From contig JAQUVQ010000017.1 of assembly GCA_028693285.1 (NCBI GenBank), positions 1 to 47,628 of the forward strand: DNA of 47,628 bases, in the 5' to 3' direction. The stretch comes from Smithellaceae bacterium. Lineage in GTDB: Bacteria; Desulfobacterota; Syntrophia; Syntrophales; Smithellaceae. Shown here in pieces: positions 11,722 to 17,849 of this stretch. Every line of letters starts with the position of its first letter. The first letter of the stretch is position 1. The position numbers and the translations under genes were made by a program. Below the pieces are notes generated by a model. It did no database searches, had not been told where the DNA came from, and saw only the letters and a list, made by a program, of their open reading frames with translations.

Positions 11722-12736
11722 ATGTGGGATGCTTCAAAATGCGATTATTGCGGCGATTGTCTGGTCAGATGCCGCTATGTCGATTACGACAGGGACAGGG
11801 CCGCACGCGAAATAAAGCTTCTCATGGAAGGCCAGGCGGCGGATATTCTTGGGTCATGCATTACCTGCAACGCCTGTGTTCAAACCTGCCCCACCGGCGC
11901 CGATCCGGCCGATCTCATCTACACCTTGCAGGAGAAAACCGGGGCCAGTCCGATCATCGCAGGCTTTAAACCCTTTATCGATGCCGTCATTCAGGGGTTT
12001 GAAGAAGGCGGCGCAGGCATCATCGTGGAAGGAGAAGCAAACAAGCCTGTTTTGTCCCTGGATTCCTTCGGCATCAAGCAGTTTCCGAAAGGCACGATGG
12101 AAAGCCGAATGTTCAAAGGCATGACCGTGGTACGGGGAAAGCCGTACGCTTCCCTGGTCGGCATGTGCCATATGGGTGGTGCGAGTCTGACCGCAAGGTA
12201 TGCTCAAAAAGTGATTGAAGGCCTGTCCGCGCTCGGCAAGGATATCGTTTACCTGCACAACGAAGGATACGTTCTGGCCCATGTCAAAGCGAAGGAGTTG
12301 GGCATTGACGTCCCCTACCGGTATATGCACCTGTTCGAATACCTGCTCGACTATCTGAAGAGCAACGCAGGCGACATCACACCGCTGAACCGGAAAATCG
12401 CCTATCAGCCAAACTGCGCCGCCCGGTGGATTCCCCATCAGGACGCGTGGCTGGACGAAATTTTCGATCGGATCGGTGTAAAGCGCGTGTCGAGAAAATA
12501 CGAAGGAGTGGACGCCCTGTGCTGCGGCGGACCGGCGCTTGCCGTCAACCGGGAGCTGGCGGCGAAAATTCAAAACGACAACATTTGGGATGCCCGGGAC
12601 AATCAGGCCGAAGCCCTGGTGACCATCTGTCCCATGTGCGATCTCGTGCTCGGCGCCCCGACCGCAAAAGCCGGTTTGCCGAAAATATTCATCACCGATA
12701 TTTGCCGCATGGCCCTGGGCGAGGCGCCCTGGCCCG

Positions 12737-12750
<14 letters not shown>
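11722..12750 (+). CDS. Iron-sulfur protein with two 4Fe-4S sites and a CCG domain (HdrD/GlpC-like)
   Basis: A 342-residue electron-transfer protein. The N-terminus holds two ferredoxin-type sites, CDYCGDCLVRC and CITCNACVQTCP, about 40 residues apart. The C-terminal half carries one complete cysteine-rich (CCG) unit: QPNCAARW, then CCGGP, then CPMCD, the signature of HdrB/HdrD, GlpC and LutA-type proteins that bind a noncubane cluster. The first CCG unit looks degenerate (MCHMGGAS). It is the last gene of the operon, so it probably collects electrons from the upstream oxidoreductases and passes them to a thiol/disulfide or quinone-type acceptor (inference). Its end overlaps the convergent regulator gene by 14 bases, leaving no room for a conventional terminator. 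Confidence 0.82.
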
Positions 12751-14758
<2,008 letters not shown>

Positions 14759-14783: not shown

Positions 14784-14820
14784 TGTCTCACAAATGTCTC
14801 AATTTTGTCTCAGTGAGACA
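14784..14820. promoter_or_regulatory. Operator / upstream activating sequence: three TGTCTCA repeats plus one inverted copy
   Basis: TGTCTCA occurs at 14784, 14795 and 14806, each exactly 11 bases apart (one helical turn). The third copy with TGAGACA at 14814-14820 forms a perfect 15-base palindrome. The cluster sits 26-62 bases upstream of the regulator start and 86-122 bases upstream of a sigma-54 promoter on the + strand, a usual place for an enhancer. It is probably bound by the Fis-type HTH of the adjacent regulator and may also give autoregulation. Confidence 0.7.
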
Positions 14821-14903
14821 TCCTTAAAGCATTTTTTGATACAAAAATCCAGAGGAAATTTAAAAAAAGCAAAACAAAACAACAATATAAAATTATTTAA
14901 GAA

Positions 14904-14920
14904 TTGGCATACTGAATGCT
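14904..14920 (+). promoter_or_regulatory. Sigma-54 (-24/-12) promoter
   Basis: TTGGCATACTGAATGCT has the invariant GG (14906-14907) and GC (14918-14919) with exactly 10 bases between, and matches most of the TGGCAC-N5-TTGCT consensus. It points toward the operon starting at 15371 and would leave a leader of about 440 bases. Confidence 0.6.
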
Positions 14921-14966
14921 AGTCATTTTATAGAAATAATGATTGACTGAAACAAATACAATCAAT

Positions 14967-15021
14967 GCGGTTAATTTCACTAACCGCTAAAATCCCCCTT
15001 TTTTAATCCTACCGAAGGGGG
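14967..15021. repeat. Two consecutive hairpins in the leader before 15371
   Basis: GCGGTTA (14967-14973) pairs with TAACCGC (14981-14987) across a 7-base loop. CCCCCTT (14994-15000) pairs with AAGGGGG (15015-15021). The second resembles dispersed CCCCCTT/AAGGGGG-type repeat remnants of many bacterial intergenic regions; a role in attenuation is possible but not shown. Confidence 0.45.
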
Positions 15022-15129
15022 AGAGGGATTCGGGGAGTAAATAGGTATCTCCAACATGCCTTCCCTGGACCCTCTCCCTCGCCTTCCTTGAACGCGTCTT
15101 CAGGCTCATCTTTTTGATAATTGCGTTTC

Positions 15130-15238
15130 TTTTCACTCATCACTTTTCACTTGTCTTTTTCCATCCACAATCCACTATTCACCATCCACCATCCACCATT
15201 CACTCATCGCTCGTCACTCGTTACTCATCACTCATATC
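15130..15238 (+). repeat. G-poor low-complexity tract of CATCAC/CCATCCA/CACTCAT units
   Basis: About 110 bases made of degenerate repeats such as CACTCATCAC, CCATCCACCATCCACC and TCACTCGTTACTCATCACTCA, almost without G on the + strand. It lies in the untranslated leader between the sigma-54 promoter and 15371. The rest of the 14821-15370 gap shows no convincing gene: the open frame at 15121-15408 is only this low-complexity tract read through. Confidence 0.7.
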
Positions 15239-15370
15239 CCTCCTTGACCCCCGTGCTTTTTCAGTGTAGGAAACCATCAGTGATCCGAAAGAAAGGAGGC
15301 CGTTTCGCCCACAGTTTCCTTTTATTTTTTTCGGGGCATGATCATCACCCCAACGTAAAAGGAGACCATC

Positions 15371-15721
15371 ATGAGCGAAGCAGACGGACCCAGAATCACA
15401 AACATTAAGATCAATCCCGACAACCTTTACAAAGAAGAGTCTTTTACGGATCTGACCTTCGCCACGATCCGGCGCCTCACGCCGGTCAAAATCGACGGTT
15501 CGACGGATGAGAGCCGCCAGCCCCTTTTCACCGGAATGGCTCAGCTCATGTCCCCCAACGGACCGATCCCGGTTCAGTGCCTGATCGAAGGCGCCTCAAC
15601 GCTCAGCGATGCGGCGGCCAAACTGCCCGACGCCATTGAAAAAGCGGTTCAAGGCATGATCGCCGAAGCGCAGGAACTGGAGCGGCAGGAAGCCTCCAAA
15701 CTCATTGTCCCCGGCCAATAA
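15371..15721 (+). CDS. Conserved-looking small protein of unknown function
   Basis: A 116-residue soluble protein that I do not recognise. It has no signal peptide, membrane segment or cysteine cluster; it has one cysteine (VQCLIEG) and an acidic, helical C-terminus (DAIEKAVQGMIAEAQELERQ). An AAAAGGAGACCATC ribosome site precedes ATG 15371. Coding character is supported by its normal codon pattern and by tight linkage: the next gene starts 15 bases later. As first gene of the operon likely driven by the sigma-54 promoter at 14904, it may be a small regulator or chaperone-like partner of the enzymes that follow (inference). Confidence 0.75.
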   Translation: MSEADGPRITNIKINPDNLYKEESFTDLTFATIRRLTPVKIDGSTDESRQPLFTGMAQLMSPNGPIPVQCLIEGASTLSDAAAKLPDAIEKAVQGMIAEAQELERQEASKLIVPGQ

Positions 15722-15736
15722 CAAAGAGGTGCAGCC

Positions 15737-16126
15737 ATGATCGACAACACCATCGCCGCCTGGCACAAACTGGTTGAAGAAAGAGACGCAGCCGGTCTGG
15801 ACCGCATTCTTGCGGAGAACGTCGTTTTTCATTCCCCCGTGGTCCATACGCCGCAGGCCGGAAAACCGATCACCACCCTGTACCTGACGGCGGCCCTGCA
15901 CGTCCTCAACAACGACACGTTTCACTATCTTCGGGAAGTCGCTTCCGGCAACCATGCCGTGCTTGAATTTCTGACGGTCATTGACGGCATCTCCATCAAC
16001 GGCGTAGATATGATCACTTGGGGCGAAGACGGCAGGATCACCGACTTCAAGGTGATGCTCCGTCCGCTGAAAGCCGTCAACCTGGTTCACAAAATGATGG
16101 GGGAAATGCTGCAGAAGATCAAGTGA
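15737..16126 (+). CDS. NTF2-like / SnoaL-like protein
   Basis: A 129-residue protein with the cone-shaped NTF2/SnoaL pattern: an N-terminal helix (IAAWHKLVEERDAAGLDRILAENVVFHSPV), then strands including HAVLEFLTVIDGISINGVDMITW and a final DGRITDFKVMLRP strand. This fold serves hydrolases, isomerases and simple ligand-binding proteins. No definite catalytic pair is obvious; His and Asp residues are present in the pocket region. It stands between the small unknown protein and the XRE-cupin regulator with short spacers, with an AAAGAGGTGCAGCC ribosome site. A role on the substrate of the downstream acyl-CoA dehydrogenase is possible. Confidence 0.7.
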   Translation: MIDNTIAAWHKLVEERDAAGLDRILAENVVFHSPVVHTPQAGKPITTLYLTAALHVLNNDTFHYLREVASGNHAVLEFLTVIDGISINGVDMITWGEDGRITDFKVMLRPLKAVNLVHKMMGEMLQKIK

Positions 16127-16150
16127 CGCCTTTTTTACAGGATGAAATCC

Positions 16151-16699
16151 ATGGCAAAAGTAAAAGAACACAAGAAGTCCTTCGGTCAGAGCATCAAGGC
16201 ATACCGCGAAAGCAGAAAACTGAGCATTAAAGACCTGGCGCATGAAACAGGCTATCCGGCCGACCTTCTGGAAAAGGTTGAAAAGGATGAAACCACCGCC
16301 CCGGTGGCGCTTGTTCTGCAGTTGAGCCGCACGCTGAAAGTGGACGTCGCCGCGCTGGACGGCGACGAAAACAAAAAAGCCTCCTCAAGAGTCAAAAGCC
16401 AGAAAAAGCGCGCAGGCTCCTACGCCTACACGCAGTTGACCAAATCCGGCTCCGATAAGCATCTGGGCGCGTATCTCGTCACCATCGAGCCCAACACCGC
16501 CCACGAAGGCGTGGAATACCACCACGAAGGGGAAGAGTTCGTCTATGTCTTAAAGGGAAAGCTTTCCATTTCGGTCGGCAGGAACACCAGCCTTCTGGGA
16601 CCGGGCCAGTGCATTCACTTCAATTCGGCGCTGCATCACGCGCTGAGCAATCCTTCCCCCGACAAAACGGAACTTCTCGTCGTTCTGTATATTCCCTGA
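16151..16699 (+). CDS. XRE-family regulator with C-terminal cupin sensor domain
   Basis: A 182-residue two-domain regulator. Residues ~10-65 form an XRE/Cro-type helix-turn-helix (SIKAYRESRKLSIKDLAHETG, then PADLLEKVEKDE). A lysine-rich linker (KASSRVKSQKKR) leads to a cupin-2 barrel with the metal or ligand motif EYHHEGEEFVYVLKGK and a closing FNSALHHALSN. HTH-cupin proteins generally sense a small metabolite and repress or activate a nearby metabolic gene. ATG 16151 has AGGATGA at good distance; ATG 16142 is an in-frame alternative adding three residues. It precedes the acyl-CoA dehydrogenase by 10 bases, so it may tune that operon together with the sigma-54 regulator. Confidence 0.85.
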   Translation: MAKVKEHKKSFGQSIKAYRESRKLSIKDLAHETGYPADLLEKVEKDETTAPVALVLQLSRTLKVDVAALDGDENKKASSRVKSQKKRAGSYAYTQLTKSGSDKHLGAYLVTIEPNTAHEGVEYHHEGEEFVYVLKGKLSISVGRNTSLLGPGQCIHFNSALHHALSNPSPDKTELLVVLYIP

Positions 16700-16709
16700 A
16701 GGAAAAACG

Positions 16710-17849
16710 ATGGCCTTTGAAATCACAAGCGAACAGGAAATGATCCGGCTCATGGCCAGGGATTTTGCCAGAAAAGAGCTGGAACCGATGGCGGCGGCAT
16801 GGGAGCGTCAGGGCATTTTCCCGATGGACGCAGTCAAAAAAATGGGGGAGCTGGGCCTTTTGGGCATGATGGTGCCGCCTGAACTCGGCGGCTCCGGCGC
16901 CGGCGCGGTAGCCTACTCCCTGGCGCTGCAGGAAATCGCCTATGCGTGCGCGTCAAGCGCGGTCACCATGTCGGTCGCCAACCTCTCCACGGAGCCGCTT
17001 CTCAAATTCGGCAGCCCGGAGCAGAAAGAAAAATGGCTGGTGGGACTTGCCGAAGGATCGCTTCTCGGCGCGTTTGCTCTGACGGAGCCGGGCGCCGGCT
17101 CCGACCCGGGATCGATGACAACCACCGCCGTCCTTCGGAAGGACAAATACATCATCAACGGCACCAAAGTCTTTATCACGCACGGCCAGTATGCCGATGT
17201 CATCAACCTGATCGCCCGGACGGGCCAGGAAAGAGGCGCCAAAGGCCTCTCGGCGTTCATCATCGAAAAAGGCATGCCCGGGTTTACCATCGGAACCAAA
17301 GAGGACAAACTGGGGCTGAGGGCGTCCAATACCGTAGAACTGGTGTTCGAGGACTGCGAGGTTCCCGCGAAAAACCTGCTGGGCAATCCCGGCGAGGGAT
17401 TCAAGGTGGCCATGCTCGCCCTGGACAGCGGCAGAATCGGCATTGCCTCCCAGGCCGTCGGCATCGCCAGAGCGGCGCTGGATGAAGCGCTTTCCTATAC
17501 GCAGCAAAGGCGTCAGTTCGGGAAAACCATCAATTCGTTCCAGGCCATTCAATTCATGATCGCGGATGCCGCAACCCGAATTGAAGCGGCATCCTGGCTG
17601 ACGCTGGCCGCGGCCGACCGCAAGGATCGCGGACTGAAGTTCACCAAGGAAGCTTCCATGGCCAAACTGTACGCCTCGGAAACGGCCAACAAGGCCGCCT
17701 ACATGGCGCTGCAGGTCCACGGCGGATACGGCTACACCAAAGAGTACAAAGTCGAACGCCTGTACCGGGACGCCCGCGCCACGACCATCTATGAAGGCAC
17801 ATCGGAAGTTCAGCGCATCGTCATCGCCAGAGAAGTCATCAAACCATGA
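16710..17849 (+). CDS. Acyl-CoA dehydrogenase
   Basis: A 379-residue FAD enzyme that removes two hydrogens across the alpha-beta bond of an acyl-CoA and hands electrons to ETF or an equivalent. FAD and substrate motifs are visible: ALTEPGAGSDPGSM near residue 125, FITHGQYADV, RRQFGKTINSFQAIQ, and the C-terminal LQVHGGYGYTKEYKVERLYRDARATTIYEGTSEVQR. The catalytic Glu of the IYEGT motif is present, so it should be active. AAGGAA lies before ATG 16710. It ends the operon and converges on otsB, 21 bases away. Chain-length or ring specificity cannot be assigned; it differs clearly from the second acyl-CoA dehydrogenase at 23517. Confidence 0.92.
   Translation: MAFEITSEQEMIRLMARDFARKELEPMAAAWERQGIFPMDAVKKMGELGLLGMMVPPELGGSGAGAVAYSLALQEIAYACASSAVTMSVANLSTEPLLKFGSPEQKEKWLVGLAEGSLLGAFALTEPGAGSDPGSMTTTAVLRKDKYIINGTKVFITHGQYADVINLIARTGQERGAKGLSAFIIEKGMPGFTIGTKEDKLGLRASNTVELVFEDCEVPAKNLLGNPGEGFKVAMLALDSGRIGIASQAVGIARAALDEALSYTQQRRQFGKTINSFQAIQFMIADAATRIEAASWLTLAAADRKDRGLKFTKEASMAKLYASETANKAAYMALQVHGGYGYTKEYKVERLYRDARATTIYEGTSEVQRIVIAREVIKP

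Follow-up and report, generated by a model that had tools for sequence, protein, structure and literature searches.

The sigma-54-dependent sRNAs Qrr, CrcZ and NrsZ are short structured molecules encoded directly behind promoters that depend on enhancer-binding proteins. Qrr1 is mentioned in PMC10162802, and NrsZ is mentioned in PMC9731577. In Desulfovibrio, one-component sigma-54 activators have been described that lie adjacent to their target promoters, have operators made of upstream half-sites and control very small regulons (PMC4641369). The sRNA GlnZ stems from the 3' UTR of the glnA mRNA, the transcription of which is driven by sigma-54 and NtrC (PMC9731577). MalH and MicX are related RNAs that derive from the 3' end of an mRNA in one species but have a promoter of their own in another, and the 3'-UTR RNA FarS has been linked to fatty-acid metabolism (PMC9438474).

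The locus analyzed here lies in a 47,628-nt stretch of DNA (hereafter, the window) from a Smithellaceae bacterium (contig JAQUVQ010000017.1, assembly GCA_028693285.1), and combines several of these traits. It shares with the Desulfovibrio systems (PMC4641369) the activator-adjacent promoter, the very small regulon and the upstream half-sites, of which three are present in one case reported there, but differs from them in its motif (TGTCTCA), in a fixed 3+3 mirror of six half-sites and in that the conserved product in the window's clade appears to be an RNA. As in GlnZ (PMC9731577), an enhancer-dependent sigma-54 promoter would govern a catabolic or assimilatory mRNA that carries a structured RNA in its 3' UTR, a likeness seen in the arrangement; here, however, the coding region has been lost in one clade, leaving the RNA directly behind the promoter, and no Hfq gene was found. 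MalH/MicX and FarS are found in Enterobacteria and Vibrio, work with Hfq and are not reported to be remnants, under sigma-54 control, of a gene that was lost (PMC9438474). The Smithella element also differs from Qrr, CrcZ and NrsZ in the class of its regulator, in originating from an mRNA 3' UTR and in lacking an Rfam match. Neither a coding-region loss that retains enhancer, promoter and 3' RNA nor a six-site mirror enhancer turned up in a brief search of the literature; what seems novel is the combination of a lost coding region with a retained enhancer, promoter and structured 3' RNA, together with the six-site mirror enhancer.

The activator encoded in the window (Table 1) presents Pfam matches to Sigma54_activat (7e-65), AAA_lid_14, PAS and HTH_7, with a GAF match slightly below the cut-off. 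Upstream of its start, three TGTCTCA copies at 11-base spacing, the last of them within a perfect 15-bp palindrome (14806-14820, TGTCTCAgTGAGACA), were confirmed exactly to the base as described in an earlier sequence-only reading. Two further inverted half-sites, one degenerate and one reading TGATACA, had been overlooked in that reading, so that the array it described corresponds to the direct half of a 3+3 mirror plus the first inverted site. Taken alone, the heptamer is about as frequent in the window as expected (5 copies vs 3.3), but the palindrome has no second occurrence with up to two mismatches in the 2.68-Mb genome. The genome-wide search for TGTCTCA-N4-TGTCTCA arrays suggested in the same reading returned, at up to one mismatch, a single place, the array's own locus, and a reversed-pattern control gave 0 matches. 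Other single-mismatch matches to the array, outside this genome, were discarded as chance occurrences, one falling inside a coding region (L099) and two having no sigma-54 motif nearby (L100, L103).

Table 1. Coordinates of the features described at the activator locus (window positions).
Feature	Position	Strand	Details
One-component sigma-54 activator (enhancer-binding protein)	12737-14758	-	Weak GAF, PAS, AAA+, C-terminal HTH
Direct half-sites TGTCTCA (three)	14784-14790, 14795-14801, 14806-14812	+	Spacing exactly 11 bp
Inverted half-site TGAGACA	14814-14820	-	Position +1 from palindrome centre
Inverted half-site TAAAGCA, decayed	14825-14831	-	Position +12; TGAATCA in most relatives
Inverted half-site TGATACA	14837-14843	-	Position +24
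Sigma-54 promoter	14904-14921	+	GG 14906-14907, GC 14918-14919, within TTGGCATACTGAATGCTA
Predicted non-coding transcript	14931-15095	+	Conserved in four ACS-less species; z = -4.5 vs shuffles
RNA element, ~120 nt	14965-15087	+	Covariance model R2 match, 114 bits
RNA hairpin I (GCGGUUA / UAACCGC)	14967-14987	+	6/7 pairs changed on both sides in 14-species alignment
CU-rich linker, unpaired (AUCCCCCUUUUUUAAUCCUACC); candidate interaction region	14988-15013	+	Left without pairing by most single-sequence folds
RNA hairpin II, long imperfect stem	15017-15080	+	Basal-stem cells 99% paired
Sigma-70-like promoter of 15371 operon	15244-15272	+	TTGACC-N17-TAGGAA
15371 operon	15371-17849	+	116-aa unknown, SnoaL-like, XRE-cupin, acyl-CoA dehydrogenase (Pfam)

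Orthologs of the activator were identified across the genus at 69-91% identity, one of them split across two contigs. The sequence-only reading had made its proposal depend on the array being conserved in relatives, and all 13 activator-ortholog loci indeed carry six half-sites about a single palindrome, the first three direct and the last three inverted, at intervals of 11-12 bp. Relative to the palindrome centre, these start at -29, -18 and -7 (TGTCTCA) and at +1, +12 and +24 (TGAGACA, TGAATCA and TGATACA). In the window's clade the three direct half-sites are perfect and the +12 half-site has decayed. Over 16 operators, information content averages 1.56 bits at half-site positions vs 0.94 bits between them (P = 3e-6). 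The -24 GG and -12 GC elements of the promoter are present in the window with consensus flanks (TGGCATACTGAATGCT), and their position places the predicted +1 at ~14931. The corresponding motif, TGGCA[TC]-N5-[AC]TGC (more loosely, TGGCA[TC]-N5-NTGC), was found at 13/13 activator loci and at three fad-type (thiolase-operon) loci, with its GG 90-93 bp from the palindrome centre at every locus measured. The invariant geometry, the recurrence of the arrangement before a second operon in three relatives and the presence of rpoN in the window's genome strongly support the claim that an operator array and a sigma-54 promoter lie beside their likely activator. Comparative sequence evidence hence strongly supports a role for the array as enhancer of the adjacent one-component activator, which would bind it and activate the promoter. 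This enhancer is a new example of a well-known kind, and its strictly conserved 3+3 layout provides a clean natural template for studying how an oligomeric activator is seated on DNA.

In the relatives whose activators are 69-76% identical to that of the window, the gene directly divergent from the activator encodes a ~552-aa AMP-binding acyl-CoA synthetase (ACS). This gene is missing at the locus in the window and in two relatives, L032 and L036; in a third, L053, the sequence ends ~500 bp upstream of the activator, and those ~500 bp match the ACS-less arrangement. The four form a fully supported clade in the activator tree, surrounded by ACS-bearing lineages, and this nested position indicates that the loss of ACS is derived. 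All the genomes compared are draft MAGs, that of the window being 99% complete, and the occurrence of the arrangement in four separate MAGs speaks against an error of assembly. Outside this locus, the closest ACS paralogue in the window's genome is only 63% identical.

The regulon was delineated with a composite search pattern combining the palindrome and the two outer inverted half-sites. The pattern was found at one place beside the activator in each activator-bearing genome, and a second match was confined to G008, G013 and G011, where it lies in all three cases upstream of a thiolase gene and is accompanied by a sigma-54 motif. The beta-oxidation operon behind this second operator, readable in G008 and G013, encodes a thiolase and a FadB-type protein and, in G013, also an acyl-CoA dehydrogenase. 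The thiolase operon lacks both operator and promoter in G014, which has no activator ortholog, and likewise in G018. The window's own genome has no such thiolase operon, and palindrome, array and composite-pattern searches found no second operator copy there. Taken together, the presumed ACS and thiolase/FadB-type targets point to fatty-acid (or other carboxylic-acid) catabolism as the process that the regulator probably activates.

The 165 bp behind the sigma-54 promoter are near-identical in the four members of the ACS-less clade and diverge abruptly at ~15095. Folding of this stretch yields -54 kcal/mol, with z = -4.5 against shuffled sequence. The 3' two thirds of this stretch were recovered in ACS-bearing relatives just behind the ACS stop codon; the RNA element is located behind the sigma-54 promoter in four species and follows the ACS stop codon in the remaining ones. 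With a covariance model, 14 genomes of the genus gave one copy apiece, against none among 31 other members of the family and 24 more from the order. Within the genus, the element is present in all genomes bearing an activator ortholog, as well as in G010, where the contig ends inside ACS, and is absent from the six other genomes, most of them incomplete.

Two hairpins separated by an unpaired linker make up the predicted structure. The sequence of hairpin I is wholly different between lineages, and its pairing is kept. In alignment A2, in which hairpin I was re-registered by hand after RNAalifold had missed it on the earlier alignment A1, 11 pairs have both sides changed, the covariation score is higher than in all 500 shuffles, and 91.4% of cells are paired vs 50-56% when partners are slid; since A2 was fitted to the structure, the slid and shuffled controls lean in its favour. 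Single-sequence folds return the same two hairpins. The linker, with near-invariant CCCC and UUUUU stretches, is among the most conserved parts of the element and reads AUCCCCUUUUUUUCCUGCC in most relatives; the element's tail is also CU-rich. On the promoter's strand, 28 G-U pairs were counted vs 16 A-C cells, a weak indication that the element is read from that strand.

Several alternative identities for the element were considered and rejected. A dispersed repeat is at odds with the single copy per genome obtained both by DNA search and by covariance model. No Rfam family matched at gathering score, the only sub-threshold matches being eukaryotic hairpins, and the RNA constitutes an unclassified family. 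The sole candidate small ORF, with 13 codons from 14965, overlaps hairpin I, which differs in ACS-bearing relatives. Three negative results weigh against a stand-alone RNA. Downstream of the element, no intrinsic terminator can be seen. A search with the Pfam model found no Hfq gene in the window's 99%-complete MAG, in which control models did match, and duplex energies of linker and tail against the start regions of nearby genes identified no consistent target.

The sequence-only reading had named the 15371-17849 acyl-CoA dehydrogenase operon as the probable target of the sigma-54 promoter. Applied to the ACS-less clade, this would mean that the promoter was rewired to the operon after the loss of ACS, with the hairpins contained in a ~440-nt leader. 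In the window and in L032, promoter and operon do lie on the same strand with no intervening gene. In ACS-bearing relatives, however, homologues of the 15371 and 15737 genes are located beyond ACS or absent, with ACS, and sometimes one further gene, separating promoter and 15371 homologue in most of them. The operon has a sigma-70-like promoter element of its own, TTGACC-N17-TAGG, conserved in 9/10 aligned loci, including those with ACS or other genes in between, and the ~270 bp that separate the element from the 15371 gene are poorly conserved and repeat-like. Furthermore, L036 lacks the operon yet retains array, promoter and RNA element; beyond the element its DNA is unrelated, and the next recognizable gene encodes a nucleotidyltransferase on the opposite strand. 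Synteny and the operon's own promoter hence argue against it as a conserved target; we regard the rewiring as very unlikely, and read-through from the sigma-54 promoter into 15371 as possible in the window and L032. A cis-acting leader of the 15371 operon can likewise be discarded, given that L036 and L043 have the element without the gene, and that in L038, L039, L041 and L047 a nitroreductase-like gene comes first behind the element. The array could, alternatively, serve chiefly to autoregulate the activator gene, for instance with the bound activator repressing its own promoter. In the window and most relatives the array lies 25-60 bp ahead of the start codon of the activator gene, a location that would suit such a role. 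Against it, this distance grows to ~100-180 bp in L038 and L044, vs a fixed 90-93 bp to the sigma-54 promoter, and the same array precedes thiolase operons away from any activator gene. Autoregulation as the main function of the array thus appears highly improbable; as an additional one, it is compatible with enhancer function at the divergent promoter.

The retention of promoter and element in L036 in spite of unrelated downstream DNA points to the RNA element as the common product of the promoter in the clade. Double hairpins at mRNA 3' ends can serve simply as transcript protection, and the position of the element immediately after the ACS stop codon in relatives would fit a mere mRNA 3' end that terminates or stabilizes the ACS transcript, and that persists in the window as a recent relic without a role of its own. 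The divergence accumulated since the loss of ACS speaks against this. At fourfold-degenerate sites of the activator gene, the window is 71-73% identical to its three sisters, and these are 72-81% identical among themselves. Identity within the clade is much higher, at 92-100%, over segments 14958-15000 and 15001-15095. If positions matched at a rate of 0.72, the probability of at least 117 matches in 123 positions would be ~5e-11, and the element is hence conserved far above fourfold sites. Moreover, the unpaired linker is highly conserved, which a plain protective hairpin would not need. We therefore consider a relic of this kind rather unlikely. The action of the element could nonetheless be confined to mRNA 3' ends or take place at the DNA level.

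The reading that we favour, and hold to be probable, is that the adjacent activator acts through the array, as its enhancer, on the sigma-54 promoter, and that this promoter now produces a stand-alone RNA that was formerly the 3' UTR of the ACS mRNA. Sequence comparison documents the conservation of operator and promoter, the second operon, the loss of ACS and the structure and constraint of the element; that the RNA is transcribed on its own is a prediction. Under the proposed mechanism, the activator would sense a small molecule and bind the six mirror-arranged half-sites, three direct and three inverted, one helical turn apart. On such a 3+3 array it would presumably act as a higher oligomer, and a hexamer would fit, with one DNA-binding domain per half-site. 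Its AAA+ domain would then open the sigma-54 polymerase ~92 bp downstream. The ancestral product would have been an ACS mRNA with a structured RNA in its 3' UTR, as is probably still the case in today's ACS-bearing species. The thiolase/FadB-type operon found in some relatives would likewise be driven by a copy of this control region. With the ACS coding region lost in the window's lineage, the promoter would now transcribe the RNA element directly, and the product in this clade would be a ~160-nt non-coding RNA alone, spanning ~14931-15095. Its CU-rich linker and tail may act in trans, base-pairing with purine-rich ribosome-binding sites. The broader proposition that a non-coding RNA gene born by coding-region loss, its enhancer, promoter and structured 3' UTR having been preserved by selection, regulates fatty-acid catabolism without Hfq, and that the six half-sites hold one hexamer, is tentative and open to considerable doubt. 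Because some genomes have the ACS coding region and others lack it, comparing them allows a direct test of the origin of sRNA genes from mRNA 3' ends. The element represents a candidate regulatory RNA connected with the use of fatty acids by Smithella, which live in methanogenic communities.

Additional features were observed in the vicinity of the locus. The leader of the 15371 operon (15244-15370) is conserved in the alignment of upstream regions, where CCGAAA(A)AAAGGAGGC ... TTTTTCGGGG could pair, hiding a GGAGG, and it is possibly regulated. Neither Pfam nor NCBIfam gave a match to the 116-aa protein encoded at 15371-15721; it is 76-96% conserved across the genus, and the SnoaL-like gene comes behind its own wherever it was found. 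Between the RNA element and the 15371 promoter, positions 15120-15240 consist of low-complexity direct repeats (CACTCATC and CCATCCAC units), and related CTCGTCGCTCGTC repeats occupy the corresponding gap in L032. On the other side of the locus, the activator gene and a plus-strand gene for an Fe-S/CCG protein (11722-12750) are convergent and overlap by 14 bp (12737-12750).

Half-site variants and a divergent sigma-54 motif are also frequent near the activator's more distant paralogues, suggesting that the array layout may be typical of this activator subfamily. A family of this kind, in which every activator seems to have its own version of the half-site, is suited to the study of a specificity code. 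Divergent sigma-54 motifs were observed upstream of paralogues at L046, L048, L049, L052, L054 and L055, and several paralogue loci carry half-site variants, such as TGTCCCA or tandem TGTCTCA.
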